From a virus, in the IMG/VR virus record IMGVR_UViG_3300017783_000113, positions 1-32,022 of that record: 32,022 nt of DNA; one strand, written 5' to 3'. The number at the start of each line of letters is the position of its first letter. Within the stretch, counting starts at the first letter, position 1. A program made the translations under genes and the position numbers. Positions 6,019-32,022 of the stretch are shown here, piece by piece. The notes beneath the pieces are model-generated. The model saw only the letters and a list, made by a program, of their open reading frames with translations. It did no database searches and was not told the origin of the DNA.

Positions 6019-6618
6019 ATGGATGGGTATGAAGTTTATAAAATTTATCTATCACTAAAACTTCATTTTTCAAAGGACAATTATAATTTTGTTACTTTTA
6101 ATGGAAAATCAAGAGCAAGTTTAAAGTCTTTTGAGAATAGAAAGGATAAATATTTTTTTAAAAAACTTGGTTTAAAATTTGAACGCCAAGAACTTATAGA
6201 ATTTTTCGTAAGTCATTTTATTATAGATAGTAACTTGTGGATAGGAAATATATCAATACATAAATCAAAGACATACTCTACTTGGAAATCAAAGATACAG
6301 AGTATGTCTTTTATATTTGAGAATGAAATGCAATCTCTATTCTACGATAGAGATTTTGATTCTGTATTTAAAATTACTAATGGTCAACACCCAGATTTGC
6401 TAAAAGAACACTTGTCTGGTCGTGTAAGTTTAGAGTCTATGGTAATATTAAATCAGTTAGTAAATTATATACCACACTTTAATAATAAAATTTCTGACCC
6501 TATTGTATGGCCGGAAACAAAAAAGAAAGTAGTAAAATACGAACCATTCCTTTCAGTTAATAAGTCTAAATATAAAGGTATCCTGTTGAATCTATGCAAT
6601 TCTTTGACAACGACCTAG
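6019..6618 (+). CDS. 59: Loader of gp41 helicase, gp59-like
   Basis: T4 gp59 loads the replicative helicase gp41 onto forks covered with gp32. This 199-aa protein has the family start (YEVYKIYLSLKLHFSKDNYNF), the SRASLKSFENRKDKYFFKKLG helix region, and a helical C-terminal half that should contact gp32 (NQLVNYIPHFNNKISDPIVWPE). The length is close to T4 gp59 (217 aa). It lies between genes 33 and 32, the expected cluster. The 3' end overlaps the next gene by 25 bases. Confidence 0.85.
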   Translation: MDGYEVYKIYLSLKLHFSKDNYNFVTFNGKSRASLKSFENRKDKYFFKKLGLKFERQELIEFFVSHFIIDSNLWIGNISIHKSKTYSTWKSKIQSMSFIFENEMQSLFYDRDFDSVFKITNGQHPDLLKEHLSGRVSLESMVILNQLVNYIPHFNNKISDPIVWPETKKKVVKYEPFLSVNKSKYKGILLNLCNSLTTT

Positions 6619-10190: not shown

Positions 10191-10693
10191 GTATCTTCCA
10201 AGAGATAAAAGAACTAGCAGGAAGTGAACCAAGATCTTACTCTTGGTATAGAGATGCTGTGAGGATGTCCTTTCAGAGGTCTGATCTTTATAGTGACATG
10301 ACATCATTGGAAGAATCTATAATTCCTTCTGGTGGTGAGTTATATATGTTTGAATATAAAGCAGTCTATGCTAGAAAATTAAAATATTATGATGAGTTTC
10401 CTTTAGTATATGTTTTAAGCGGTGGATCAAAATTTTACGGGGCAAATTTACACTACCTACGTTATAGATCTAGAATGAATGTTATCCTTGGATTAGAAAA
10501 AGGTTCAGCAAGATTTCCAAAACAATGTTTCCACAATTATCTTGTCGAAGGATTAGAGACACCACTCTATAAAATAAATAGAGAAGATTATAAAACAGCT
10601 ATATTTCTTCCTATAGAAAATTTCGTATCTAGGAGGAAAGGTATGTATCAACAGTATAGTAAATCTGCCGTCTGGGGGGAAGTCTCACAATGA
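10187..10693 (+). CDS. Conserved structural-operon protein, 168 aa, function unknown
   Basis: Coupled by ATGA overlaps to gene 4 on one side and the gp54-like gene on the other. The core LYMFEYKAVYARKLKYYDEFPLVYVL and GANLHYLRYRSRM looks like a compact beta-rich domain that I have seen in many T4-like marine phages without a firm name. Since T4 places gene 2 (DNA end protector) next to gene 4, a gp2-like role is possible, but this is weak inference from order only. Confidence 0.65.
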   Translation: MSIFQEIKELAGSEPRSYSWYRDAVRMSFQRSDLYSDMTSLEESIIPSGGELYMFEYKAVYARKLKYYDEFPLVYVLSGGSKFYGANLHYLRYRSRMNVILGLEKGSARFPKQCFHNYLVEGLETPLYKINREDYKTAIFLPIENFVSRRKGMYQQYSKSAVWGEVSQ

Positions 10694-11505
10694 GTATAAA
10701 TTTTGAAGGAGAAATGTCTAATTACAGTGACTTTCGTAGTCAATTAAAGAAGACTGGATTTAGTATAAACAATTTTTATGATGTACATTTCAATTTAAAT
10801 ACCACAACTAAATTAAGAAATCAACTCTCAAAATATCGAGGAGTTAATTTCAGTGAGTCTGACAGATTGATGAGATTGTATACGGATGAAGCATCTCTTC
10901 CAGGAATTCAGATGTCAACAGGAGAATATCGTCTTACTAATACTCCAACATTAAAGTATGCTTATGGAGCTGTTTTTAGTGAGGCGCAGTTTTCATTTAT
11001 CATGGATGCAGATGCTCAAATTAAATCTATATTTGATTTGTGGTCAAACTGGATGTATAGTTATACAGTAGAAAGAGAATCTATTGCTGATACTCCGTTT
11101 ATTACAACCAGACAAGATAAATTTAGATCGGCATATAGAGATGATTATACAGTAGACATTCTTATTGTAAAGTATGAAAGATCTGAAAGTAGTGATAAAA
11201 ATAAAGGCAAGGAATCATTTCCATTAGCAAGAATAATTCCAGATTCACCATCTCCAGGAGAACCGAGTGGATTCTTTAAAGCAATTCCTACTTATGCAGT
11301 TAAATTATTTAAAGCGTTTCCATCAAACATTGCTTCTATTCCAATGAACTCTGGTACGTCAGAGTTAAGTAAAATGTCAGTTGGTTTTGAGTATGAAACT
11401 TTTTCCACAACGGCAATAGTCGATGGTAAAGTTAGTTCTATGTTTGATTCTGTCAACGGTGGGTCTGGTGAAGGAATACTAGAATTACTTTCATCGTTCA
11501 TCTAA
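10690..11505 (+). CDS. 54: Tail-tube-fold baseplate protein, gp54-like
   Basis: A 271-aa protein that would start the tail tube on the baseplate. The segment RLYTDEASLPGIQMSTGEYRL then YGAVFSEAQFSFIMDADAQIKSIFDLWSNWMYS follows the gp54/gp19 tube-fold pattern: a strand that presents the protein to the ring, then a helix with conserved Trp. The C-terminus has SGTSELSKMSVGFEYETF, the last tube strands. A tail tube protein (gp19) is the alternative, but length and the neighbours 4, 48 and 26 favour gp54. A late promoter follows directly. Confidence 0.68.
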   Translation: MSINFEGEMSNYSDFRSQLKKTGFSINNFYDVHFNLNTTTKLRNQLSKYRGVNFSESDRLMRLYTDEASLPGIQMSTGEYRLTNTPTLKYAYGAVFSEAQFSFIMDADAQIKSIFDLWSNWMYSYTVERESIADTPFITTRQDKFRSAYRDDYTVDILIVKYERSESSDKNKGKESFPLARIIPDSPSPGEPSGFFKAIPTYAVKLFKAFPSNIASIPMNSGTSELSKMSVGFEYETFSTTAIVDGKVSSMFDSVNGGSGEGILELLSSFI

Positions 11506-11551: not shown

Positions 11552-12268
11552 ATGCCTTTACCAAAATTAAGTACGCCAACATATGAGTTGGAAGTTCCAT
11601 CCACCGGAAAGAAAATTAAATATAGACCTTTCCTAGTTAAGGAAGAAAAAATTCTTCTTCTTGCTATGGAAACTGAAGATGAAAAACAGATGGCATCAGC
11701 TGTAAAAACTATCTTATCTAATTGTATTCAAACATCTAGGTTTAAAGTTGATAGTTTATCACTGTTTGATATTGAATATATCTTTCTAAATATTAGAGGT
11801 AAGTCTGTTGGAGAAACAGTTGATTTAAATATCACATGTCCTGATGATAATGAGACTGTAGTTGGTGTTGAGATTGATTTGGATGATATCAAAGTTCAAA
11901 AATCTGATGACCATAGTAATATTATTAAATTAAATGATGACGTTTCTATTGTAATGAAGTATCCAAGTATGGATCTTTTCATTAAAAACAATATGAAAGA
12001 AACAACATCTGAAGTAGATGATGTATTTGAGATTGCTTCTATGTGCATTGATCAAGTTGTAGAAGGTGAAGAAGTTTATGAGTCTGCTAATTTTACTAAG
12101 AAAGAAGTTTTAGAATTTTTAGATAGTCTAGACACAAAACAATTCATGGATTTGCAGAAATTTTTTGAAACCATGCCAAAACTTTCTCATACAGTGAGTA
12201 TTAAAAATCCAAATACTGGTGTGAAGAGTGACGTTGTAATTGAGGGACTAGCAAGTTTTTTCGGATAG
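11552..12268 (+). CDS. 26: Baseplate hub assembly protein, gp26-like (unshifted product)
   Basis: A 238-aa protein of the T4 gp26 family. The start (LPKLSTPTYELEVPSTGKKI, YRPFLVKEEKILLLAMETED) is the signature of this family, and FDIEYIFLNIRGKSVGE and ITCPDDNE follow. The helical C-terminal part (FTKKEVLEFLDSL) ends ASFFG. The last codons contain T-TTT-TTC, a canonical -1 slippery heptamer, just two codons before the stop. Gene order (tube-like protein, this gene, tape-measure-like genes) equals that of tail assembly chaperones, so a chaperone role for the tape measure is the likely reading. Confidence 0.87.
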   Translation: MPLPKLSTPTYELEVPSTGKKIKYRPFLVKEEKILLLAMETEDEKQMASAVKTILSNCIQTSRFKVDSLSLFDIEYIFLNIRGKSVGETVDLNITCPDDNETVVGVEIDLDDIKVQKSDDHSNIIKLNDDVSIVMKYPSMDLFIKNNMKETTSEVDDVFEIASMCIDQVVEGEEVYESANFTKKEVLEFLDSLDTKQFMDLQKFFETMPKLSHTVSIKNPNTGVKSDVVIEGLASFFG

Positions 12269-12447
12269 CCCTATCCCATGAATCACTTGAAAATTTTTAT
12301 AGAGTTAACTTCAGTTTGATGCAACATCATAAGTATAGTTTGACTGAACTTGAACATATGATACCTTGGGAACGTGAAATATATATTACATTACTAATTG
12401 AATATATCAAAGAAGAAAACGATAGACAAAAACAACAAAATCAATAG
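11552..12447 (+). CDS. gp26 frameshift extension product (gpGT-like), 298 aa
   Basis: If ribosomes slip back one base at 12256-12262, translation leaves the gp26 frame after Phe237 and goes on for 61 codons to TAG 12445-12447. The added part reads RIALSHESLENFYRVNF, then HHKYSLTELEHMIPWEREIY and LLIEYIKEENDRQ. It is a helical domain with a Trp-Glu core, as in the T part of tail assembly chaperones. The frame has no natural start with a ribosome-binding site: its first ATG (12319) lies deep inside and no Shine-Dalgarno precedes it. The next gene starts five bases after the stop. Confidence 0.72.
12256..12262 (+). promoter_or_regulatory. Programmed -1 ribosomal frameshift site
   Basis: The heptamer T TTT TTC in the gp26 frame is a canonical X-XXY-YYZ site. 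A Shine-Dalgarno-like GAGGGA lies at 12242-12247, about ten bases upstream, where bacterial -1 sites often have a stimulator. GGATA (12263-12267) can pair with TATCC (12272-12276) right after the site, although this is closer than most stimulatory hairpins. Confidence 0.75.
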
Positions 12448-12451
12448 TAAT

Positions 12452-14929
12452 ATGGCGATACCGGCAGTACTAGGAGGATTATTAAAAGCAGGTGCTGGAG
12501 CAGCACGTGTTGGTGCTAAAGGAATGATCACTAGTGCTGTTTCTAACGTTGGGAAAAAGGGCGCTAAAAATAAAATCAAAGCTGGATCTGCATTAGTAAG
12601 GAGAGATGGTGGTGGTAGTGGCAAAGGTGGTGCCATTGTACCTATTGGTAGAAAAATTCCTACTATGTCATCCTCCATAGTATCAGCACCTAAAAGTGAA
12701 AAATCCATAACAGTTTCAAAAAGTAAATCTATATTAGATGTATTAAATCAAATAAAGTCTACGTTAGATCAAATTTTAGAAGTAGAAAAGCAAGAGAAGT
12801 CAAAATTAGAAGATACTATTCTAGATTTTGTTCGTAATGATGAACGAGAAAGAAGAGATGCTGAACAAGCTAAACAAGAAAAATCAAAAAAGAAACCTAA
12901 GAAAACTAAAGAGAGTCCAGTAGTTAAAAAGGCTAAGAAAGCTGTACAGGGTATCTGGGGATTTATTAGTGATATAGTAAAAGATTTTTTAATGTTTAAA
13001 ATATTAGAATGGTTTGGTGATCCAAAAAATAAAGAGAAGATAGGAAGAATTGTAGATTTCTTCAAGTGGATGGGAGGTATACTACAAAAGTTATATAAAT
13101 TTGTAATTAAACCTTTAGGGTCTTTACTTCTTGGTGGGTTAATAAAGACAATAGAAATTGCTGGTAAAGTATTTACTGGATTGATAGGGTTCTTTAGTTT
13201 TGATTGGTTACCTGATGCTCAAAAGTTTTTAACTGATTTAGCAAACTTACCTATGACTATATTGGGTATGATTCCTGATATGATAGGTAAGTTATTGAAC
13301 TTCTTAACCTTTGGTTTGTTTGATAACATGGGTAACTTTGTTAGTAACTTATTATCAAATCTAAATCCTTTTAATTTATTTGGTGGCAGCAAGGAAGAGG
13401 ATCAATCAGAAGAAGTAAAACCAGAACCAGAACCAAAAAAACCAGAACAATCTGGAAACATATTCACAAATATGTTTGATGGTTTATTTGGAAATAAATC
13501 TAAAGATAAAGAAGAAAATAATAAAGACGTACCCAAGCTTGAGAAGGGTGGTATTGTAGAGAAAGATACAACTAATTCCACTGTAAGTGTAGAACCTCTT
13601 CAGAATTTAATTAAAGCAACAAAGTTATCAGCTATCGTTGATGATGCTGTAAAACCTTTCTTAAAATTAATTCTTGCACCATTCAAAATTATTGGTACAG
13701 CTATAGTTGGATTGATATTAAGGACTGTAAGTAAAATTCCTTTCGTTGGAAATTTACTAGAACCAATTGTAAGAATGGCAGCAACAACATTTGGTGTTCC
13801 ACCTCAAGTTCTTGGTCAACTTAGTTCTGCAACTAAAGATGATTTAGTAAAACCAATAGACAAAGAAGATTTATTGAAAGATTTATTTAATGGTGTTAGA
13901 GATTTAAATACATCTATAAAAGATAGTATGAAGGATGGTGGTAATCCTTTCGCAGGATTCATGTCATCTATGGGAGGAGTTGCCAGTGCAGTGGGAGGAT
14001 TCTTAGGTAATATATTTACATCACCTGCTGCAGCTGCGACTACTCCTACACCTACTGTAGTACCACCTACACCACCAATGCAGTCCTTTGATTCTCACGC
14101 TGATGCAGGTGCTGCTGGAGTAACACAGTATAGTAATACTGAAACTGGAAAGTCTTATCAGAAAAATGAAGATGGGAGTGGTTGGTCTGAGATGACTGCT
14201 CCAACATCAGGAAATGGACTGTCAACATTCGGTGAGACAGATGGTGGATCTGGAAGATTAGTTAATGCTGCTGGATATGTTCATGGACACTTCCAAACCA
14301 ATACTGGAACTAGACAAGATGTTATTAACGATACATCACAGATGGTACGTGCTATGTTGAATACTGGTCTAACTGATATTTCCATAGCAGATGGAACTAC
14401 CTTTATGCCGAGTATGTCTGATAGTGAAATTAAGGGACTAGTAGAACGAGGATTAGGATTGCACGGACATAGTGGTGATGGAAGATCTGTTGATATTTTT
14501 GTTCCAAAAGGCACTCCTGTTCCGTTCCCATTAACTGATGTAAGAACTGCTGGTGGTGGTGAAGGTAGAAGTGGTGTTGTTCCTGGATCTGGACATACTT
14601 GGGTGGGACACTTAACCCCTGATTCTCAGTCGGGATCAAGAAGTAATGTATCTGCTAATATTACACAAGAACCAGATACATCTGGGGCAATTATGCTTGC
14701 CCCAGCAGAAATTTCTAAAACACCACCAACAAATAGTACTGGTAGTCAGATGCAATCAGTACAACAGGAAAGTTTTAATCTTCAATCATTATCCGAATCT
14801 ATAAATTCTAGTACAGCAGTTTTAAATAATTCAACTCAAAATGTTTCAGATTCATCTCCTGGTGGAGCATCTCTTGGAAATACTTTGCCAATAGATGGAT
14901 TATGGGCAACCTTCAAAACAAATCTATAA
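12452..14929 (+). CDS. Large tape-measure-like structural protein 1
   Basis: I start at ATG 12452 (MAIPAVLGGLLKAG), five bases after the frameshift stop; an in-frame TTG at 12398 is unlikely. The product has 825 aa. Order: Gly/Ala-rich N-terminus; coiled coil (about 93-160, KSTLDQILEVEKQEK); hydrophobic helices with ILEWFGDPKNKEKI (about 183); amphipathic segments to about 330; an acidic Pro/Glu linker; KGGIV and further hydrophobic helices (about 365-450); an Ala/Pro linker; then a domain at about 605-715 with HGHF, GLHGHSGDGRSVDIF, PKGTPV and GHTWVGHL, reminiscent of M23 peptidases but without the normal HxxxD pair. It shares several segments with the next gene. Confidence 0.75.
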   Translation: MAIPAVLGGLLKAGAGAARVGAKGMITSAVSNVGKKGAKNKIKAGSALVRRDGGGSGKGGAIVPIGRKIPTMSSSIVSAPKSEKSITVSKSKSILDVLNQIKSTLDQILEVEKQEKSKLEDTILDFVRNDERERRDAEQAKQEKSKKKPKKTKESPVVKKAKKAVQGIWGFISDIVKDFLMFKILEWFGDPKNKEKIGRIVDFFKWMGGILQKLYKFVIKPLGSLLLGGLIKTIEIAGKVFTGLIGFFSFDWLPDAQKFLTDLANLPMTILGMIPDMIGKLLNFLTFGLFDNMGNFVSNLLSNLNPFNLFGGSKEEDQSEEVKPEPEPKKPEQSGNIFTNMFDGLFGNKSKDKEENNKDVPKLEKGGIVEKDTTNSTVSVEPLQNLIKATKLSAIVDDAVKPFLKLILAPFKIIGTAIVGLILRTVSKIPFVGNLLEPIVRMAATTFGVPPQVLGQLSSATKDDLVKPIDKEDLLKDLFNGVRDLNTSIKDSMKDGGNPFAGFMSSMGGVASAVGGFLGNIFTSPAAAATTPTPTVVPPTPPMQSFDSHADAGAAGVTQYSNTETGKSYQKNEDGSGWSEMTAPTSGNGLSTFGETDGGSGRLVNAAGYVHGHFQTNTGTRQDVINDTSQMVRAMLNTGLTDISIADGTTFMPSMSDSEIKGLVERGLGLHGHSGDGRSVDIFVPKGTPVPFPLTDVRTAGGGEGRSGVVPGSGHTWVGHLTPDSQSGSRSNVSANITQEPDTSGAIMLAPAEISKTPPTNSTGSQMQSVQQESFNLQSLSESINSSTAVLNNSTQNVSDSSPGGASLGNTLPIDGLWATFKTNL

Positions 14930-14933
14930 TTAA

Positions 14934-17522
14934 ATGGCAGACTTAAACGCAATAGCACATGGTATAGATTCGGATTCTGGAGAGTATCTAACTTCAGAAC
15001 AGAGGAAAGCTTTATTTAAAAAAGGGAAGATGAAAAGCCCTATCAATACTAAAGCTATTCGTTCTGGAATGATAACAGTATCTAGATCAGACGCTCCTAA
15101 ACCTGGTGCGTTAGCTAGATCATCTGCCTTAGTTAAACAACCTAAAGTAGAAGAAAAAACAGAACAAGCTGAGTTTGAAACAGACGAAGTACAAACTGTA
15201 TTTAATCAAACAAAAATTACCTTTGTTAATATATTAAAAGTTAAAAGAGAAAAGGAAAATTTAAGAGATAAGTATTTTAAATTATTAGGAAAGAAAAAAC
15301 CTACTCCAGTACAGGAAGAGAGTGAAGAAGATACACCTAAGAAGAGTGGTAAAATGCCATTCAAAGTTCCAAAGCTTAATGTAATGGGATTGCTTGGCGA
15401 CCTTATTCAGTTCGCTATATTAGACTGGATAGGTAAACCAGAAAATAAAAAAATTGTAGAAACATTTGTAAATGTATTCAAAGTAGTTGCTGGATTCTTT
15501 GATTGGTTTATAACTGGTGTTGTCGATAATATACTCACTGGTTTTTCTGAATTAGTTGGTGGGGATAGTATAATAGAAAGGATAGGAGGGTTCTTTAAAC
15601 TTGCCTTTGGTCTTGTAGGATTACGATGGCTCCTTAATCCATTAAAAATATTTAAAGATATTGGTAGAGTAAAAAAAATAATTAAATCTTTTGCAAAGAT
15701 GTTTAAAGGCACATTTGCAAAGGGTGCTAAAGGGATGACAAAAACATTCACAAATATGTTATCTCTTGCTGGAAAAACATTTCAGAAAACTTTTGGTAGA
15801 TTAATAAAGAGATTCTTCTTAAAACTATTTGGTAAAACAATTACAAAAGGAATTAAAAAACTTGGTAAGATTGCATTGAAGAGAGGTGTAGGATTAGTAA
15901 GAAGATTTCCAATAATTGGTCCCATTATTGCTTTTGGTATTGAACTTGCCATGGGAGAACCAATCGGTCGTGCTGCATTTAAAGCTATTGGTGCTACATT
16001 ATTAGCTGGTATTGGTACTGCTTTTGGTGGACCAGTTGGTACAGTTTTAGGTGGTCTTGCTGGTGAATGGGCAGGTGGTAAGTTATATGATCTTTTCTTC
16101 AAAGGAAAGGAAGGTAATAAAGAAGAAACTGATAAACCAGAATTAGCAACAGGTGGTATTGCATCAGGACCAAAGAATGGATATCTTGTCATGTTACATG
16201 GCACCGAAGTTGTAATACCAATTAATAAACTTGCTGATATTTTAATACTACCATTCCAAACATTAGGTGCTGGTATTATTGGAGCAATGATGGGTTCAGT
16301 TAATTCTATGGGTAGTGCTGGAACTTTTATACGACCAATCATGGTCAGTGTTCTTGGACCATTATTAAAAGTATTTGGGTCTGAAAAATATACCGTGACT
16401 GATAAGGTTGGAAAGACTCAAGGTAGTGCTGATACTTTGACCAGACATATAGAAAGAGAGACAGAAGAGAGAGATTTAGATAAGTTTTTTGAAAAAGATA
16501 TGTTAAAAGAACTAGGATCAGCTTTATTAATGACTGGAGGGAATATATTCAATTCTATAATGGGTGGATCTGCACAAGCAAAATCATCCGATCCAGGTAG
16601 CAAGAGACCTGCTTCTGGTCAAGAATCCTCAACACCTGGAACTACCTCATCTGTTTCTGGACAAGCAGGTAACATGAATAAAGGTGCTGAAATGCTTAGA
16701 AATGCTGGAGTTCCCGATAAGGGCGCTGCATATTTGGCTGGCAATATTCAACAGGAATCATCTTGGAATGGTCAACGTGATTGGGGACAAGTTATGGGAG
16801 ATGGTACATCACGTAATGGCGGTTTGGTATCCTGGGCATCGTGGTCTGATGACCCCGCTCGTCTAGGTAAGATTGAAAAGTATTTAGGTAAAAATATTAA
16901 AGAAGCTTCTGACGGCGAACAGATTAATGCGATGCTATGGGAAATGAAGAATGATTATCCTGGAACATATAAAGTTTTCATGGATCCAAATTCTAGTGAT
17001 CAACAATTAGAGAAAGCATCTTATCAATACTGGGGATATGGAGAGGTAGGAGAAAGATATCATTATGCACAACAGGCACTGCAACACTTGCAAAAGTCTC
17101 CGAAACAAACTACACCATCAGCAACTCCACCAGTAACACCTGGACAAAACTTAACACCAGAACAAAAATCTAGTATGTTCCAGAAGTCAGGTATGACTGC
17201 TTTATCAGCAGACATTTTATCTTCTGTTTCTACTGGTGTAGAAAGAGAACCAGATACTTCTGGAGCAAAAATGTTAACTGGTACTAATAAAGGTCCAGTT
17301 CCACCATTAACACCACAAGCAACTGTATCAAAAAATACTCAAACGTCTGCTATGGTACCAATGAGTACTAATTTTTCAATAGATAGAAAAGTAAAACAAA
17401 CTAGATCTCTCAGTGCTAGTACATTTATATTGAATACTCAGACTAGTAACAGTATGAATGTACAATCAGCACCTCTAAATAGTACAAGTATAGGAGAATC
17501 TATTCTCCTTAATAGGATATAA
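14934..17522 (+). CDS. Tape-measure-like structural protein 2 with tail lysozyme domain
   Basis: An 862-aa paralogue of the previous gene. N-terminal coiled coil; ILDWIGKPENKKIV (about 161); long amphipathic and hydrophobic helices with strongly basic stretches (about 225-330); a Gly-rich segment (about 345-385). Residues about 405-435 hold GYLVMLHGTEVVIPI, a motif typical of tape measure proteins. Residues about 580-719 match phage tail lysozymes (Phage_lysozyme2 type): LRNAGVPDKGAAYLAGNIQQ, ESSWN with the candidate catalytic Glu608, and LVSWASW. It would span the tail and open the peptidoglycan. The stop overlaps the gene 27 start. Confidence 0.8.
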   Translation: MADLNAIAHGIDSDSGEYLTSEQRKALFKKGKMKSPINTKAIRSGMITVSRSDAPKPGALARSSALVKQPKVEEKTEQAEFETDEVQTVFNQTKITFVNILKVKREKENLRDKYFKLLGKKKPTPVQEESEEDTPKKSGKMPFKVPKLNVMGLLGDLIQFAILDWIGKPENKKIVETFVNVFKVVAGFFDWFITGVVDNILTGFSELVGGDSIIERIGGFFKLAFGLVGLRWLLNPLKIFKDIGRVKKIIKSFAKMFKGTFAKGAKGMTKTFTNMLSLAGKTFQKTFGRLIKRFFLKLFGKTITKGIKKLGKIALKRGVGLVRRFPIIGPIIAFGIELAMGEPIGRAAFKAIGATLLAGIGTAFGGPVGTVLGGLAGEWAGGKLYDLFFKGKEGNKEETDKPELATGGIASGPKNGYLVMLHGTEVVIPINKLADILILPFQTLGAGIIGAMMGSVNSMGSAGTFIRPIMVSVLGPLLKVFGSEKYTVTDKVGKTQGSADTLTRHIERETEERDLDKFFEKDMLKELGSALLMTGGNIFNSIMGGSAQAKSSDPGSKRPASGQESSTPGTTSSVSGQAGNMNKGAEMLRNAGVPDKGAAYLAGNIQQESSWNGQRDWGQVMGDGTSRNGGLVSWASWSDDPARLGKIEKYLGKNIKEASDGEQINAMLWEMKNDYPGTYKVFMDPNSSDQQLEKASYQYWGYGEVGERYHYAQQALQHLQKSPKQTTPSATPPVTPGQNLTPEQKSSMFQKSGMTALSADILSSVSTGVEREPDTSGAKMLTGTNKGPVPPLTPQATVSKNTQTSAMVPMSTNFSIDRKVKQTRSLSASTFILNTQTSNSMNVQSAPLNSTSIGESILLNRI

Positions 17523-22084: not shown

Positions 22085-25000
22085 ATGGCTCTAACTAGAG
22101 TTACTTCTGGTGGTATTGCACAAGGCGTCCAAATTAAATTTGATAGTGCTAATACACCAACAACCCCAGCATTTTCTTTTCAAGGTGATGAAAATACTGG
22201 TATATATCAAAGTGGTGCTGATGAACTGTCTATTTCAACAGGTGGTGTTCGTAGAGTAACATTTAAAGCTGATGGTAGTATCGAGACTGGTAATGGTACT
22301 GTTCTTGGTGGTACAAACCCAGATTTTGATAATGCACAAAATATTACGTTATATGTAAATCAGTCAGATCAGAACGCTACTGATGCAACATCAAATACTG
22401 GTGGTAATTTAAATAAACCATTTAAATCTATTGAAAGAGCACTTCTCGAAGCTGCTAAAAGGAGTTATAAAGCAGATCCGTCCCCAACAGCTGCTGGATC
22501 ATTTATAGCTGGAAAAACTTATATTGTTACATCATTATCCACAGGTGGTGGTGCAACAACAGATTTTATCTCAATTGGTGCTTCTAGTAATACTGTAGGT
22601 GTATCATTTATTGCAACTGGTACTGGTGCAGGTACTGGTACAGCAACTCTTAATAATGATAAATTTGAAGCATTTACTATTATGGTGCTTCCTGGTCAAT
22701 ACGAAGTTGATAACAGACCAGGACTTGATCTCTTCAACACAAACGTTTTAAACACTGCAGCTGTAGAAGATCCATCTGATGGTTTAGGTGCTAGAACTAT
22801 TGCAGACCTTCAGGATGGAGGTACGTGGAGATTTAACCCAAGAAATGGTGGTATTATTGTTCCTAGAGGAACATCTATTGTAGGTTATGACTTAAGAAAG
22901 ACAGTTATCAGACCAAAGTATGTTCCTGCACCTTTCTCGATTGATGGCAGTATTACTGGTGATAGTTATTCACTCCGTCAAATAGCACTTGATGGTGCTA
23001 TAATGATTGAAAGAAGTCGTGGATATATTGTTGAACAAGCTAGACTTGCTATGTCTGGTGGTTATAATACCGTTGGTCAAGGTGCTGGTAGTAACACAGC
23101 AGCTCAAAATGGATGGAATGGTTTAACTACTGCTCAAGAAGCTCTCTGTATTCGTGACATCGGATACTTTGTTGATGCATTGATCAAAGACTTGCGTGAA
23201 GGTGGTAACGAAAATACCTTTGTTAACGCTGAATCATATGTTGATGGAAATGGATATAGAAAGGAATTCCTTGATGGAGATGATGATAATTTAACTAATG
23301 AAATTGCTGCTACTAGACTTGCTTTTGCGGTTGCGACTAATGCTGCAAGACATATCACTAAGAGTAATAGTGATTCCTCTACATATTACAATACTATTTC
23401 AGGTGGTACTATTGCAACACCATCATTTACTCCAGGTGATGGATACGTATCAAATGGAAACTGTAATGATGTTGTAAATGCTGTTGCAGTTCTTGGTGCA
23501 ATTGCTGATGGTATTATTGCAAATCCAAATACTTACACTGCTACTAATGCAACTGGTATTCCTGTAATTGGTGGTGGTGCAACACCGATTACCATTCCTA
23601 TCAGAAAAACCCAAGGTGTATATGAACAAACATCTATCTTTAAGGTAACTGGTGGTTGTTATTTCTGGCAGATGACATTTAAAGATGCTGTTGGACAACC
23701 TTATGAGAGCACTTCTTACACTAATGGTATTCCAACACACACCAAAGCTTCTAATTCAACTTATTCCCACCATAGAGTAGTTGCATTCACATATGCTGAC
23801 CAAAGAAATACTGATGGTGAACTTAATCAGTATTACGGAAAAATTGATGCGTGGCAAGGAAGAACCCCTCCTGCGGATGTTCTTGACGTAAGAACAGAAG
23901 AATTCCAAATTGTTGGTGACAGAAGTAAGAATTACACGATTGATACTGTAAATTCTTGTTCTCCATATATCTTTAACTGTTCACTACGTTCTGTCTTTGG
24001 TATGTGCGGTATGCACACCAATGGTAGTAAAGTTGCTGAAAACAGCTTTAAATCTATGGTTGTTGCCCAATTTACGGGTATTTCACTACAAAAAGATAGA
24101 GATGTATTCATTCAACCTAAAGATGCACAAGGTGACAATGATGATTCGGATTATAATGATGATAATCCAGCAACAGATCAACAACCTCCAATTTTTGCGG
24201 ATCCAGACGGACAATATAAGAGTGATTGTAGACACTTCCACATTAAGGCGTCAAACGGTGGATTTATTCAGGTAGTTTCCGTTTTCGCTGTTGGTTATGC
24301 GGATCAATTCCTTGCCGAGTCTGGTGGTGATATGTCGATCACCAACTCTAACTCTAACTTCGGTCAACTATCACTAAGAGCAAAAGGATCACAGTTTAGA
24401 TCATTCAAACCATCTGCTCAAGGAAGAATTACTGCACTTATTCCACCTAGAGGTATTAGTAACAAATCTGTTGATAACAGTTTCTATAGTATTGATGCAT
24501 TGAGCACATGGGCGCAGGAAAATCTTTCTGCTGACTCCGGAGATGATTTTACAGAAGAATTAAAGAGTAAACTTTCTAACTTCAAAGCAGTTGGTGGATT
24601 TAAACTATATCTTCAGACTGGTGCAGATTCAGAAGCTAATATTCCAGAACTAGTCGTAACTAGTTACGATCATGACACTGACCAAATGGTAACTAAGAGA
24701 TTCTTGACTTATGGATCTCAAGGAGAATTTGCTTTATTCAGAGATTTTTATGAAAATGATGGTTTAACTCCAACTGCACAAAGAAAGTTAAAACTAATAT
24801 TAGAAACTTCTGAGGGACAAACTGGTTCTGGTGATAGTGGTACAACTTTTAATATCTCACTTAATACAAGTTATGATAGTAACGCTGATAGTTATGCTGA
24901 TGAACAACATAATAGTGAAAGACAAGGTTATTATTGGAACCCTAATGCAGGTGCAATTTACATAAAATTAAATAATGATACTGCTACAAATTCTTTCCTA

Positions 25001-28000
25001 GACGGATTTATTTTTGCTTCTGATTCAGAACAAACATTCACATTTGAGACCATATTTGATTCAAATACTGGTGCAACAACTACACAATTAGTTAGTGGTA
25101 CAAAAGATACTCTAAGATATAGACAAGGTTTCCCATCTAACTTACTTACGTCTAAGTATTTTGATGATAGAGATTCTTCGCCGGAGGATTTATTGTGGAG
25201 AGTAGAATACACCATTCCTAAGTATCTAGCATCTGGTGTAAATCCAAAACCACCAGAAAAGAGATTTATTATCAAGGGAACCAGACCAGCTAATGGTGAG
25301 GATAACGTTCCATATACTGATTATAGGTTTATGATTTGGGATGTTCAAGAAGTTCAAGCATGGGAGAATAATTCAAAAGATGGTATCTACTATCTAACAA
25401 TTGTTAGAGCAGACGTTAACAAGTTTGTTGACGTATTTAATAGTAGTAATGAAGTTGGTAAAATTACTAGAAGACCTCTTGGTATTACCGCTGGTCAAGA
25501 TTTTGATTGCGAGAATATTGAATCCCTCAACTTGTTTGATAAAGAAACCAAGTTGATGACAAACGTCAACTATCTATATCCATCCGTAAACCAAGAAGCT
25601 CCTATTTACGACACAAGAACTATTTGGAACCCACCACAAGCTGACTCTAGAGTCATGACTGAATCATTGGGAATTAGTGGCGAAGGTAGAAGAATTAAAG
25701 ATATTTCTGTTCCAAACTTTAAGAGATTTCATGCTACTGCATCAAATTCACCATTTAAAGATATTCCTGCATTGCAATCGGTAACTGCAGAAACTGTACA
25801 TAGACTTGTACAAGCTCTTGACTTAAGATATATTACTGATACCGGATCATCTACAACAAGATCAACTGATAGAGTCTTTATTGCTCCTGTAACAAATTGG
25901 GATGCTAGACCTTCTCAATCTGGACTTGGTTACACTACTACTTCTAGTGATTTGTATCCAACAAATAGTAGATTTGGTTTCTCCGAAACCGTTCCTACTG
26001 GTACTCGGGCCGGCGGCGATGATTTTGTTATATTTAATAATTTTGGTATTGCTAAAGAATCCTTAGACAGAAGAATTATTGTTTGTTCTGAATCTGCTGA
26101 AGGTGTTGCATCTGGTGGTAATATTACATCTGCTGTTCTACAAAACAGTTCTTCTGCTAACCCAACTGGTTTAACATTTGCTCCTGTAATTCCTCTTTAT
26201 AGACCATCAATTCTACGTGCGTCTTCACATACCTGGGAATATATTGGTCTTGGTTCTGGTAACTACTCGACTGGATTCCCCAACCTTCAGACAAGAGTTC
26301 TCAAAATATTTGAACAGTTTATTGCACAGGGATACGAAAACGCTGGTGGTTTCGTTGCATCATCTGGTACTAACTCTGCTGGTGATTTCTATATTGGTAA
26401 CCAGGTTATCCAAGCAGGTGGTACAAGTACAGTCACTCTAAACGTACCTAAAGTTCGTAAATCATCTGAATCAAACTTTGTTGACGTTGAAAATATTGAA
26501 AACAGAATTTCCAACGCAGTTATTAATATTACTACTGTTGGTAGGGCAACCGCTCAACAAAATGCATTAAAGGATCTAACTAACTTCTTTAACATTCAAA
26601 AACTTACTGTTAGTGATACAGCAAACATTACCAATCTAATTGTAGATAGGTTCTTTATTAACAGATCCGAAATTAATAATGCTGCTTTCTTCCCAGAAGG
26701 TAATACTAGTGCATATGGTTTCGTTAAGGGTGCAAAACCAGAAAAAACCGGTTTCATCTCAACAGACACTAACGATAAATTATATGTATCTCCTAAGTAT
26801 CTCGATGCATGGAGAGTTAAGAGACAACTTATTTCTGCTGCCGCAGTTACGTTGGATAACAATAGAGTTTACATCCAACCTTATCTACAGTCTGCCACTC
26901 AGGGTTATGTATCTACATCACCAGGAAGTGGTCAACCAGCAATTTTTACATCAACTGCTTTAACTTATAGTAGTACACAGGTTAATGGTTCTAATGCCGC
27001 AACATCAAGTGCTGATCTAATAAAACTCAATGTAGTTGAAACTGCTGGTCTTGCATCATTCGGTAAGGTCGATGTTTCTATGTCATTGACTGGTATTGGT
27101 ATTGAGGATTATTATATATCTGGCGGTAATAAAATTTATCTAAATGCCAAGGTAAATATTCCCTTATCTTATGAGTCTGTTGACTATACGACAAATGAAA
27201 TTGTCCTTTCAAAAGTACAAAATGGTATACCCATTATTGATTATCTTGAAAGTTATCTTAAAGGAACTCACAAATCGTTAATTAAAAATTATCCACCGAT
27301 TACAGCATCTGGTGCAGCCGGTATTAATGCATCTGAGAATGACGTTAAGTTCTTAAAAGCAAAATTACATGCTGACTTTAACGCATCAACTGCTGGCGGA
27401 GGTTCTTCTACAATCGATCCAAATACCGTTGGAACATACGCTACTATTCAGGTTTCTATCGCATCTCAAGCAGAATATGACGCTTGGCCAGACAGAGGTT
27501 CTATCTCACTAAGAGAATATGAAAAGGGTGGCACATATTACATTTCATCTTATAAGTATTACAAGACAGGATTTACTTTTACTGATGACAGCAACCCTGC
27601 TAATGATTATGGAACTTTCGTATTATTTGATAACTATGGTGCTGCATCTAACAATGCAGGTTTAGGACACACATTCGAAGCATCATACAACAACAAATAT
27701 CCAGGTATAGATTCTAAGAACGTATTCTTTACTGGTTGCGATAGTTTAGTATTTGATTCTGATAGATGGACATCTGAATCTCCATTCATTCCACCTCTGG
27801 ATCCAACTAAGGGTGTTGTTGAAGAGGTTAATATTGAAGATGCTATTCTTTATAGAGTTCCAGAGAAGAAACTTCCTATTGCTATAGAGTTAGATGAGGA
27901 TTATTTCGATAGAAATCTTCCAAACCCATACAGCTCAAAAGCACTTGGTGTCAACATTCAGGAAAGAAATGAAGTTAAGAGATTTAGTCCCCTATTCTCG

Positions 28001-31000
28001 TTTAGTCAGTGTAGACAATGGGCAGAACAATCTGGTTTCAATTCTAGTGATGAGTTAGAAATGTTAATGAAACCTGGTTATTATAAAATGGATGGATCTG
28101 CATTCCCATGCTCTGTTAAAATTAATGGAACTGGTATTTCTAAATCATCGGTTTTTGCAGGTAAAGAACAAACCAGAACTTCTGCTGGAAGAATGGGTGG
28201 ATATCTTGAAGATACAGTGAAGAGAGGAGATAGTGTATATCTCTATCGTACATTAGGTTTCACTAAGCAATATGGTGTTGGTAATGATGCAATTGCTAGT
28301 AGTATTTCAGGTGGATTGAGTGCTGATGGATCATTTAATTTGTCAAATGTTCACTTATTAGGTATTAATGAATCAATCACCAAAAATGAAATTCCTGATA
28401 GTGTGTTTAGTGATGACAATAATACTCAAAATGCACGAAGAGTTGTAAGAAATGCATACTTCACAAAAGGTGCTATTAAATCATCAACCAATACGTCTGG
28501 ATCTGGTCTCACACCAGCAATTATTAATGCTAATATAGGAAACACTATAAACACATCAGGTGTCGATGGTGCAATCGAAATAATTATGAGACAAGATGGT
28601 GGTGGTGCATCTGGTCATGGTTGTGAAGCACATCCAGTTATTAATAGTGGAAATATTATTCAACATGATCCTACCGCTGTTCAAATTGACGCCAATAATG
28701 CATCTTTCTTTGAATTAAATAATGCTGATTTTACTAATTGCAGATACTTCTCTATTAGAATTAAAGCATCTGATTATGCTACTGATGCTAATTCTAAATT
28801 AAAATTTGATCGTATGAGAAAATATATTATTCCCGGTACAACTATGTACTACATGGGTACTGACTCTCTAACAGACAATCAGGTTGCTGATTCTAAAGTT
28901 ATAGTACTATCAGACGTAGCAGCAACATCTAATATAACTACTTCTACTAAAGTTCTAAGTGTAAGGAAAGTAAATCCTTCTGTAAACTTAGATTTTGATG
29001 CTACTTCAACTGAATCTATCGAAGTATTAGTTTCTGTATACAGAAGTCCTGGTGGTCAAACAAATGGAAATTCAAGTTCATATACTAACGATACTGAAGA
29101 TTTGGACACAGGAACTTGGGCATCTGGTAAGTTGAGAAAAATTGTATTTGTAAATGAAGATGGTGCAGAGTATTCTACTTTATTATATAATTGGGCTATA
29201 GAAACTAGAAGAGATTTCCTTCCAAAAGGATTTATGCATGAAGGTGGATATCAGGGTCCTATCCTTAAGAAAACTGTTGCATCTGTATCTGGTAATGGTA
29301 GTAATAAAACTATTTCTCTTGATAGTATTAGAGATATTACTGTTGGTGACCGTGTTACATGGAGAGATGAAAATGGCACTGATCAGTTAAACAACTTTAG
29401 AGTTAATGCTATTAACGCAGGACTAAAAACTATTGAACTTTCTGATCCTGTACCTACTGGGGTTACTATTAGTACTGATAACTTTATATCTGTTACTAAA
29501 TTTGATATCTTTGGTGACGAAGTAACTAAATTTGATTCTCCTGAAATATATGGTATATTGAGAAGTGCTGAAGCTGATCAGTTAGTTCTAGTTATTGATA
29601 GAAATCCAAATAAAGAATATGACACTTCAATTTCCGCATATCCATATGCTTCTGGATCATTTGGACAACATCCAACACAATTGATTCAATTGAAGAATGA
29701 GTATGATTTCCCAGAAAAATCCAACAATACTAAGTATGGATCTTTAGAAGATGCTTCTCTTGCATTTAATAGAGTTAAAGCATCGTATCAAAGAATTAAT
29801 GGTATTGAAAATGATAGATTCTTATTCATTGACGTTGATCCTGCAGGATTTGCTACTTTAGCTAATACTGAAGGTAGTGCAACTCCAGACCAAGTAGATA
29901 TTACTGGTAGTTACTTAGAAAACGCTGGTATTCACCAAGATATCTTAACTGGATTTGCAAACTTTAATCAACAGTCAATTGCTAATGGCGGTGCATTTGG
30001 TAAAGGATTTGTTCAAACAACAACTGCTTCAGTAAATACAACTGGTCTATCTTATGCAAATGCTAGAAGTGCTTTAGAGACTGCTATATCAAATGCTATT
30101 GGTAGTATGATTACCAGTACCAGAAACTATAATAGTAGATTAAGAGTTTTAGTGTCCGGTACAAGTGTTGGTAATTGGAGATTCTATGCAAGAATTAATA
30201 CTAATCCAAATAGTGGTACCTATAAATTAGGTGAAATTACAGAAATCAAGTGTTACAGTACTAATAGTGGTTCTCCTACTGTTGTTAACAGTACTTTAAC
30301 TCTTGATGTTGTTGATGGTAGAGGATATGTTATTTCACAATCTGGAAGAACTGTTTCTACATCTTCTACAATTGGTTCTATTAGTTCCAGTGATTTTACA
30401 GCTGTTGCTAAAGCAAACTTACTTGCTGCTGCAAAGCTTAATATTAGTGAAACTCCCGGTCAAGATGATACTACTGAACTAGGTTCTCCATATTTAGAAT
30501 CTGTTCTTTATGATGGTGTATACACTGATGACCCAATTATTGAAAGTGCCAGAGGTAAGAAAATATTCAACTCCTGGCCTAAGAGTTATAGAACCCTAAG
30601 AAGAAGATTCCCTCTCGCTGGTATGCCTGTAAATGGTAATTATCAGTCTTCAATGATTTCTGTTAATTCTCTCCCAGGTTCTGGTTTTACATTAAATCTA
30701 ACTGGAGTAACTATTGGTGCTCAATCTCCCGCTGACTCTTCTGCAAATACATTTGGTGGTGGATATAGAGGTGGTTTGATCAAGTGTAGAGGTGCTCAGT
30801 TAACACTTAAGGGAACAAGGTTTAGAGGTAATTTATCTCTTGACTGGATGGGAATTGCTACTATTGGTGATGCTCGAGCAAAAGATTCGGGTAATGGATC
30901 ATTCGTTGCAGGACACTCCATTGAAATGTTCCAGATGGAAGATCAAAATTCTTTTGCTTCTATTGGTGGTTCAGCACCAGCAAAAGAAATCAGAACATCT

Positions 31001-32022
31001 AACTTGGATGAAGAGTTTAGACAGTTAACAGAATTTGATCCAGTATCTAATGTTTACTTAGAACCTGGTAAAGATCCTTATGGTAGATTGTCTGATGGTG
31101 ATGCAAGAACATTCCCACTTTCTACGAGACAAGCTGTTAGAAGATTTAACAAGTCTAGTGCTCCTGTAACTCCATGGACTGGTGAAAGTCCTATTGGTGC
31201 TGGTGATTTATTGACAAAAGTTGCATTGTTTGAAAGATATCAAGCACCATTTGGTATTGTATATGATGCACCTAGTGCAGATCCTGTAAATCCAGGTTTA
31301 GTTACTGGACACATTCCAGTAAGTATAAATGGTACAACTAGTAATGCTTCTGGTGTTATGTTGAGATGGAGAGATACTAGTGCTGCTGTAACATATACAG
31401 TTACTAGTGGAGAAAACCTTTCACTTCCTACAAGAACATTAGGTTTCTTTGTTGCTGATGATGTTTCTGGTCAAGACATTCCATCAAACATCTTCTTTGG
31501 TAAAAATGCAACTGGTATAGTTAAAGCGGAAGTATCTGGTGCTACTACTACAACTTTCGTCGAAAGTACTTATGCCCTTGTAAAATCAACCTCATTATCA
31601 TCTAAAAAGTATGATATTACCACAGCTGGTGTTATTACAGAGTCGATATCTGGTAAGTATCTCTTTATTCAAGTAACATTTGATAGGAACAATGCATTTG
31701 ATCCTCTAGGGACAGGATCATCCGGAACTGCAATAAATGTAAATACTGATTATCTAAATGCTAAGAGATATAATTATGTTTCTACCGTAACTTCCAGATA
31801 TTCTAAGTCTACGCAAAACAATTTTGCTAAACTTATTGTAGAACAATCAGATGATAACACAGTATATTCACAACCAGCAAACTATGCGATTGATGGTGAA
31901 AATAATACTTGTAGTGTTGGTTATGATAATTTTACAACTGTAGATGCTAATGAGTTATTCTTAGTTAACACAACTAATAGTAATTATGTAGCAGCAGATG
32001 CTGGTAGAGTTCTTATTACAAC
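22085..32022 (+). CDS. Giant virion or tail-fibre-type protein (partial, runs off the window)
   Basis: ATG 22085, preceded by GGAG, opens a frame that I read without a stop to the window edge: 3,312 codons and still open. The start MALTRVTSGGIAQGVQIKF and the GDENTGIYQSGADELSI motif are typical of marine phage fibre and structural proteins. LYVNQSDQNATDATSNTGG with NKPFKSIERAL looks like the entry of a pectate-lyase-type beta-helix, and GGIIVPRGTSIVGYDLR continues it. A Cys-containing helical insert follows (ALCIRDIGYFVDALIKDL). The rest is Gly/Ser/Thr/Asn-rich beta-repeat sequence with further beta-helix-like stretches. It likely forms a long fibre or appendage for host recognition. No enzyme motif was recognised. 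Confidence 0.85.
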   Translation, partial: MALTRVTSGGIAQGVQIKFDSANTPTTPAFSFQGDENTGIYQSGADELSISTGGVRRVTFKADGSIETGNGTVLGGTNPDFDNAQNITLYVNQSDQNATDATSNTGGNLNKPFKSIERALLEAAKRSYKADPSPTAAGSFIAGKTYIVTSLSTGGGATTDFISIGASSNTVGVSFIATGTGAGTGTATLNNDKFEAFTIMVLPGQYEVDNRPGLDLFNTNVLNTAAVEDPSDGLGARTIADLQDGGTWRFNPRNGGIIVPRGTSIVGYDLRKTVIRPKYVPAPFSIDGSITGDSYSLRQIALDGAIMIERSRGYIVEQARLAMSGGYNTVGQGAGSNTAAQNGWNGLTTAQEALCIRDIGYFVDALIKDLREGGNENTFVNAESYVDGNGYRKEFLDGDDDNLTNEIAATRLAFAVATNAARHITKSNSDSSTYYNTISGGTIATPSFTPGDGYVSNGNCNDVVNAVAVLGAIADGIIANPNTYTATNATGIPVIGGGATPITIPIRKTQGVYEQTSIFKVTGGCYFWQMTFKDAVGQPYESTSYTNGIPTHTKASNSTYSHHRVVAFTYADQRNTDGELNQYYGKIDAWQGRTPPADVLDVRTEEFQIVGDRSKNYTIDTVNSCSPYIFNCSLRSVFGMCGMHTNGSKVAENSFKSMVVAQFTGISLQKDRDVFIQPKDAQGDNDDSDYNDDNPATDQQPPIFADPDGQYKSDCRHFHIKASNGGFIQVVSVFAVGYADQFLAESGGDMSITNSNSNFGQLSLRAKGSQFRSFKPSAQGRITALIPPRGISNKSVDNSFYSIDALSTWAQENLSADSGDDFTEELKSKLSNFKAVGGFKLYLQTGADSEANIPELVVTSYDHDTDQMVTKRFLTYGSQGEFALFRDFYENDGLTPTAQRKLKLILETSEGQTGSGDSGTTFNISLNTSYDSNADSYADEQHNSERQGYYWNPNAGAIYIKLNNDTATNSFLDGFIFASDSEQTFTFETIFDSNTGATTTQLVSGTKDTLRYRQGFPSNLLTSKYFDDRDSSPEDLLWRVEYTIPKYLASGVNPKPPEKRFIIKGTRPANGEDNVPYTDYRFMIWDVQEVQAWENNSKDGIYYLTIVRADVNKFVDVFNSSNEVGKITRRPLGITAGQDFDCENIESLNLFDKETKLMTNVNYLYPSVNQEAPIYDTRTIWNPPQADSRVMTESLGISGEGRRIKDISVPNFKRFHATASNSPFKDIPALQSVTAETVHRLVQALDLRYITDTGSSTTRSTDRVFIAPVTNWDARPSQSGLGYTTTSSDLYPTNSRFGFSETVPTGTRAGGDDFVIFNNFGIAKESLDRRIIVCSESAEGVASGGNITSAVLQNSSSANPTGLTFAPVIPLYRPSILRASSHTWEYIGLGSGNYSTGFPNLQTRVLKIFEQFIAQGYENAGGFVASSGTNSAGDFYIGNQVIQAGGTSTVTLNVPKVRKSSESNFVDVENIENRISNAVINITTVGRATAQQNALKDLTNFFNIQKLTVSDTANITNLIVDRFFINRSEINNAAFFPEGNTSAYGFVKGAKPEKTGFISTDTNDKLYVSPKYLDAWRVKRQLISAAAVTLDNNRVYIQPYLQSATQGYVSTSPGSGQPAIFTSTALTYSSTQVNGSNAATSSADLIKLNVVETAGLASFGKVDVSMSLTGIGIEDYYISGGNKIYLNAKVNIPLSYESVDYTTNEIVLSKVQNGIPIIDYLESYLKGTHKSLIKNYPPITASGAAGINASENDVKFLKAKLHADFNASTAGGGSSTIDPNTVGTYATIQVSIASQAEYDAWPDRGSISLREYEKGGTYYISSYKYYKTGFTFTDDSNPANDYGTFVLFDNYGAASNNAGLGHTFEASYNNKYPGIDSKNVFFTGCDSLVFDSDRWTSESPFIPPLDPTKGVVEEVNIEDAILYRVPEKKLPIAIELDEDYFDRNLPNPYSSKALGVNIQERNEVKRFSPLFSFSQCRQWAEQSGFNSSDELEMLMKPGYYKMDGSAFPCSVKINGTGISKSSVFAGKEQTRTSAGRMGGYLEDTVKRGDSVYLYRTLGFTKQYGVGNDAIASSISGGLSADGSFNLSNVHLLGINESITKNEIPDSVFSDDNNTQNARRVVRNAYFTKGAIKSSTNTSGSGLTPAIINANIGNTINTSGVDGAIEIIMRQDGGGASGHGCEAHPVINSGNIIQHDPTAVQIDANNASFFELNNADFTNCRYFSIRIKASDYATDANSKLKFDRMRKYIIPGTTMYYMGTDSLTDNQVADSKVIVLSDVAATSNITTSTKVLSVRKVNPSVNLDFDATSTESIEVLVSVYRSPGGQTNGNSSSYTNDTEDLDTGTWASGKLRKIVFVNEDGAEYSTLLYNWAIETRRDFLPKGFMHEGGYQGPILKKTVASVSGNGSNKTISLDSIRDITVGDRVTWRDENGTDQLNNFRVNAINAGLKTIELSDPVPTGVTISTDNFISVTKFDIFGDEVTKFDSPEIYGILRSAEADQLVLVIDRNPNKEYDTSISAYPYASGSFGQHPTQLIQLKNEYDFPEKSNNTKYGSLEDASLAFNRVKASYQRINGIENDRFLFIDVDPAGFATLANTEGSATPDQVDITGSYLENAGIHQDILTGFANFNQQSIANGGAFGKGFVQTTTASVNTTGLSYANARSALETAISNAIGSMITSTRNYNSRLRVLVSGTSVGNWRFYARINTNPNSGTYKLGEITEIKCYSTNSGSPTVVNSTLTLDVVDGRGYVISQSGRTVSTSSTIGSISSSDFTAVAKANLLAAAKLNISETPGQDDTTELGSPYLESVLYDGVYTDDPIIESARGKKIFNSWPKSYRTLRRRFPLAGMPVNGNYQSSMISVNSLPGSGFTLNLTGVTIGAQSPADSSANTFGGGYRGGLIKCRGAQLTLKGTRFRGNLSLDWMGIATIGDARAKDSGNGSFVAGHSIEMFQMEDQNSFASIGGSAPAKEIRTSNLDEEFRQLTEFDPVSNVYLEPGKDPYGRLSDGDARTFPLSTRQAVRRFNKSSAPVTPWTGESPIGAGDLLTKVALFERYQAPFGIVYDAPSADPVNPGLVTGHIPVSINGTTSNASGVMLRWRDTSAAVTYTVTSGENLSLPTRTLGFFVADDVSGQDIPSNIFFGKNATGIVKAEVSGATTTTFVESTYALVKSTSLSSKKYDITTAGVITESISGKYLFIQVTFDRNNAFDPLGTGSSGTAINVNTDYLNAKRYNYVSTVTSRYSKSTQNNFAKLIVEQSDDNTVYSQPANYAIDGENNTCSVGYDNFTTVDANELFLVNTTNSNYVAADAGRVLIT

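Follow-up and report, generated by a model that had tools for sequence, protein, structure and literature searches.

At the end of gene 26, a putative tail-assembly chaperone gene in a 32,022-nucleotide stretch of DNA from a marine T4-like phage (IMG/VR record IMGVR_UViG_3300017783_000113, positions 1 to 32,022; hereafter the window), the sequence carries a potential −1 frameshift signal, and the locus raises the question of whether gene 26 and the open frame that follows it are two genes or one gene with two products. Gene 26 (11552–12268, + strand) encodes a 238-aa protein that was classed as a short, G-like tail-assembly chaperone (TAC-N), with matches to PF12322 (T4_baseplate, E = 5.9e-74) and phrog_150 (E = 1.3e-81). 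The 3′ end of the gene reads ATT GAG GGA CTA GCA AGT TTT TTC GGA TAG; within it, 12256–12262 (+ strand) is the −1 slippery heptamer of the original prediction, T TTT TTC, and 12266–12268 is the 0-frame stop codon TAG. Past the slip site, the −1 frame (12262–12447, + strand) was confirmed to stay open for 61 sense codons (12262–12444) before a TAG at 12445–12447, and on the upstream side this frame is closed by a stop codon ∼6 codons ahead of the extension. A gap of 4 bases, and not the 5 counted previously, separates the TAG at 12445–12447 from the following ATG at 12452. The extension matches phrog_634, baseplate hub assembly catalyst (E = 2e-28), and would provide a gp51/T-like C-terminal domain to a predicted long form of ∼298 aa, compared with 238 aa for the short form, in which SFF at the slip site is followed directly by RIALSHES. 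As argued below from the sequence and its relatives, gene 26 and the following −1 frame very probably constitute one tail-assembly chaperone gene, from which short and long forms would be made by −1 frameshifting.

We considered how readily such a site could arise by chance. Among the 7790 codon positions of the window's long ORFs, 3 carried an in-register TTTTTT, and the chance of one falling within the last few codons was ∼0.1–0.2%. Homologues of gp26 were gathered from IMG/VR and annotated phages, giving 264 loci with a gp26 ORF. In 249 of these 264 homologues, a −1-register T TTT TTN was found at the gene end or close to it, and a chance origin of the gene 26 heptamer is ruled out because of this conservation. 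Some records among the 249 are duplicates; clustering at 85% nucleotide identity left 113 representatives. Further, the −1 frame was open in all loci: none of the 264 had a −1 frame shorter than 120 nt, and the extension measured 56–68 codons in all 113 clusters. The heptamer was present in Straboviridae outside the T4 type (nt-1, Ah1, and phiAS5), in Pootjesviridae (phiM9 and P10VF), and in Stenotrophomonas phage YB07, pf16, and the methylotroph phage Melnitz; the 15 loci without it were 12 T4-type loci with split genes and 3 Ackermannviridae.

The first slip codon was TTT in all 113 clusters, compared with 68% TTT among Phe codons elsewhere, and the base preceding it was T in 113/113; the second slip codon was TTC in 92 clusters, TTT in 11, TTA in 8, and TTG in 2. 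Among 54 conserved columns, the slip column had the highest codon conservation; elsewhere, conserved Phe columns contained both TTT and TTC (e.g. 56/54, 47/62, and 47/66). Given that the sequences are related, we relied on the contrast with these control columns rather than on the very small nominal probabilities. Two variations on the site were also seen. In the three Ackermannviridae loci (L093, L094, and L095), the −1 extension is retained and the heptamer is degenerate (GTTTTTC, ATTTTC, and CTTTTC), which suggests a weaker or different slip mechanism. In ∼30 loci of the L101–L180 set (e.g. L121), the heptamer lies 7 codons before the 0-frame stop codon instead of 1 with its position in the protein unchanged, and the short form therefore carries a longer tail.

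We next consider how the extension itself has evolved. Pairwise dN/dS in the −1 frame was 0.155 for extension codons 1–18 and 0.04 for codons 19–55, whereas the other two frames gave values from ∼0.9 upward. A subset of 42 clusters, to which the window belongs, has no ATG, GTG, or TTG before extension codon 10, and here the value for codons 1–18 was 0.17. Judged by these ratios (0.04–0.17), the extension evolves as a protein in the −1 frame and in no other, and this applies equally to the stretch that precedes any start codon. Selection on codons 1–18 counts against an internal start because an internally started protein would omit this first part. In the window, the first start-type codon of the −1 frame is a TTG at extension codon 19, followed by an ATG at codon 20 with background-level ribosome-binding strength. 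For the first −1 ATG, this strength was −2.1 kcal/mol, equal to background complementarity to the 16S tail, versus an average of −4.4 kcal/mol at gp26 starts; the −1 frame was rightly said to lack a good start of its own. The gp26 start in the window has no clear Shine-Dalgarno sequence. An independent start of the extension was rejected for the window clade on the strength of the missing early start codon, the selection on codons 1–18, and the background-level ribosome-binding site.

Three other readings of the locus were weighed. In the one that survives best, frameshifting makes the long form and reinitiation additionally provides a free C-terminal domain in lineages in which the stop codon of gene 26 overlaps a start codon. 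The heptamer and a perfect TAATG/TGATG overlap do occur together in nt-1, YB07, phiM9, and P10VF, and at loci of this kind a free C-terminal domain could also be made. However, such overlaps are found in only 5 of the 113 clusters, and the scheme is inapplicable to the window, in which the stop context is TAGCCC and offers no start; we regard it as unlikely. The loci with a −1 frame TAATG/TGATG overlap at the gene 26 stop were L084, L087, L089, L092, L094, and L095, and the adjoining heptamer is intact in four phages.

It is more improbable still that the extension is a separate small gene, the gp51 of cyanophage annotation, that is translated from its own start or by stop-start coupling and involves no frameshift. 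A separate gp51 is indeed entered in the public records of the cyanophages S-PM2, P-HM1, and Bellamy, and the TAATG/TGATG overlaps of YB07, nt-1, phiM9, and P10VF, all from other lineages, are of the kind that coupling would use. However, the annotated gp51 starts differ among phages, and the window has no ATG, GTG, or TTG before extension codon 19, yet codons 1–18 are under selection in the clusters without early starts. The background ribosome-binding strength at the first −1 ATG also speaks against this reading, as does the fact that T4 gp51 is the fused form, and the invariant in-register heptamer is left unexplained. Finally, the notion that T TTT TTC is kept merely for a Phe-Phe pair, which is conserved in the protein, with the −1 frame open by accident, has a negligible probability and is refuted by the codon-level tests, namely the synonymous invariance of TTT and of the preceding T, and by the selection on the −1 frame and the homology of its product to gp51.

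The original prediction of a −1 frameshift is thus supported by the invariance of the heptamer, purifying selection on the extension, the lack of a usable start in the window clade, and homology to gp51, along with 3′ RNA structure in most relatives. From the heptamer, the open frame and its conservation, the selection on the extension, and the homology to T4 gp26 and gp51, we infer the slippage itself, its rate, and the chaperone action of the products. Most ribosomes would terminate at the TAG at 12266, giving the 238-aa short form. At T TTT TTC, a minority would shift back by one base, with both Phe tRNAs re-pairing with TTT, pass the 0-frame stop codon in the −1 frame, and complete the 298-aa long form with its gp51/T-like C-terminal domain. 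If lambda G/GT is a guide, the short form may coat the tape-measure protein, and the long form may recruit tail-tube subunits.

We then examined the surroundings of the slip site for elements that could stimulate slippage. The folding z-score along the locus was flat (∼−0.6 to +0.2) except at +7 to +57 past the heptamer, where the mean was −2.09 and 63% of clusters had z < −1.5, as would be expected of a 3′ frameshift stimulator. No convincing consensus structure for a common 3′ stem was found in any of four groups, and because of this the 3′ structure signal is one of individual lineages; P-HM1, for example, has a textbook hairpin 5 nt past the heptamer. In the window clade, such structure is absent (mean z +0.69, 5 clusters), and its slip rate may therefore be low. 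In the window, the 50-nt stretch past the heptamer was unstructured (z +0.4). A weak hairpin directly after the heptamer, GGATA-GCCC-TATCC (12263–12276, + strand; 5 bp), in which the 20-nt segment has −3.8 kcal/mol and z −1.97, is a candidate stimulator only.

Upstream of the heptamer, a Shine-Dalgarno-like GAGGGA (12242–12247, + strand) is a possible 5′ stimulator. It had been placed ten bases from the heptamer, and the element is present as described, with a spacing of 10 nt when counted from GAGG and 8 nt from its last base; it is, for the most part, a by-product of a conserved Glu-Gly in the protein, which yields a GAGG-like motif ∼10 nt upstream of the slip site. This Glu was encoded by GAG in 55 of 81 cases, compared with 31% elsewhere. 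Shine-Dalgarno-like matches of at least 5 nt were moderately enriched (44 versus 30 ± 4 in a synonymous null), and those of at least 4 nt were not enriched over the same null (104 versus 101). Duplex energies clearly beat the synonymous null only in the window clade and in the L010–L081 set. The element was thus rejected as a strong conserved signal, and it lends weak support to frameshifting. As a tentative proposal, which we think somewhat more likely to be wrong than right, the window clade has kept the heptamer and lost the 3′ RNA stimulator of most other Kyanoviridae-like relatives, so that a poly-U slip site on its own, or perhaps aided by GAGGG, sets the ratio of products, and more widely the T4-like phages have replaced frameshifting by split genes within a single family, Straboviridae, as a comparison of nt-1 and Ah1 with T4 would indicate.

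The position of gene 26 among the tail genes is as expected of a frameshifted tail-assembly chaperone, in that it sits between a tail-tube-like gene and a putative tape-measure pair. The upstream gene (10690–11505, + strand) matches phrog_45, tail tube (E = 7.3e-29), and PF23849, Phage_TTP_2 (E = 9.6e-14). Downstream, candidate A (12452–14929, + strand; 825 aa) has an endolysin-like C-terminal part (phrog_34252, E = 2.7e-46, residues 573–805), and candidate B (14934–17522, + strand; 862 aa) matches phrog_167, tail length tape measure (E = 3.4e-11), phrog_9570 (E = 1.2e-8), and, with a tail lysozyme domain, PF18013, Phage_lysozyme2 (E = 1.1e-7). Candidates A and B (12452–17522) are paralogues with three matching stretches by blastp (E = 1e-6), and S-PM2 has a similar paralogous pair. 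It is plausible that these two genes are the tape measure, as had been proposed: candidate B matches tape-measure PHROGs and candidate A is its paralogue, but no similarity to T4 gp29 was found among the window proteins. The AlphaFold model of candidate B was unusable (pLDDT 32.5). The AlphaFold model of gp26 (pLDDT 84.8) matches predicted gp26/gp51 structures of other phages, and the HK97 tail assembly chaperone 2ob9 had the top probability in the PDB list for this model, albeit weakly (0.41–0.47, E ∼1). Sequence searches of the PDB with gp26 and candidates A and B gave no meaningful matches. Elsewhere in the window, an ORF of at least 3312 aa (22085–32020) runs off the end, and a gp59-like helicase loader (6019–6618) lies between the exonuclease and gp32 genes, where the counterpart stretch of S-PM2 has gp33 and DUF1825 instead.

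The cyanophage records that we inspected do not reflect a frameshifted gene. The extension is left blank in ACG-2014d, S-CAM1, and S-WAM1 and is called a separate gp51, with differing starts, in S-PM2, P-HM1, Bellamy, and Sf-CH8; a joined gene was annotated in none of the records inspected. On the frameshift reading, the stand-alone cyanophage "gp51" is no gene of its own but the C-terminal portion of a longer, frameshifted protein, which would explain the variation of its annotated start among phages.

In T4, both gp26 and gp51 are classed as hub assembly chaperones, and the tape measure is gp29 (PMC3004832); the former supports the original assignment of gp26 as a G-like chaperone of the G/GT type. 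By profile alignment (hhalign), T4 gp26 (208 aa) corresponds to the short form of the window, and its alignment stops at the slip site (99.8%, E = 1.5e-28), whereas T4 gp51 (249 aa) corresponds to the full frameshift product and aligns along all of it, with its C terminus on the extension (99.6%, E = 3.9e-24). T4 thus carries as two genes what the window phage would make from one gene and its −1 extension. Genes 26 (− strand) and 51 (+ strand) of T4 are separate, and a frameshift between them is impossible because they lie on opposite strands. Parsimony suggests that frameshifting is ancestral and the gene split derived; a tree of the gp26 and gp51 N-domains, in which gp51 formed one group on a branch of 1.74, did not resolve the order of frameshift and split. 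The ICTV family Straboviridae holds both solutions, the frameshift (nt-1, Ah1, and phiAS5) and the split genes (T4), and thereby offers natural test pairs for the effect of the short/long ratio.

Frameshifted chaperone genes are already known from many long-tailed phages. Beyond T4, a parallel in organization is lambda, in which tail assembly chaperones of the G/GT type are made by −1 frameshifting (Levin 1993 and Xu 2004, as cited in PMC12859696). Lambda and the window share a single gene for both short and long products (predicted for the window), a slip site just before the 0-frame stop codon, a tail-tube-like gene upstream, and tape-measure-like genes downstream. The window differs in its slippery site, T TTT TTC, and in its weak fold match to the HK97 chaperone, and family scans detected no sequence similarity to lambda G/T. 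The chaperone locus of Vandenendeviridae and Andersonviridae, e.g. of phage Adele (PMC12846349), resembles the window in a −1 frame that is uninterrupted in all genomes, a poly-T slip motif, and an extension annotated as a separate hypothetical gene; its motif is GTTTTT, in other phage families, compared with T TTT TTC here. Among T4-like phages, poly-T slip signals in TAC-N genes (Vladimirov, Gautam and Davidson 2022, Virology 566:9–15, as cited in PMC12846349) and, in some, the alternative of a short gene accompanied by a fused long one (Vladimirov et al. 2022, as cited in PMC10274946) have been described. As far as these citing articles relate that work, frameshifting of the T4-like chaperone has already been reported, and the window gene is not the first of its kind; the present analysis adds that 3′ structure differs by lineage and is missing from the window clade, and that the extension is misannotated in the cyanophage records inspected.
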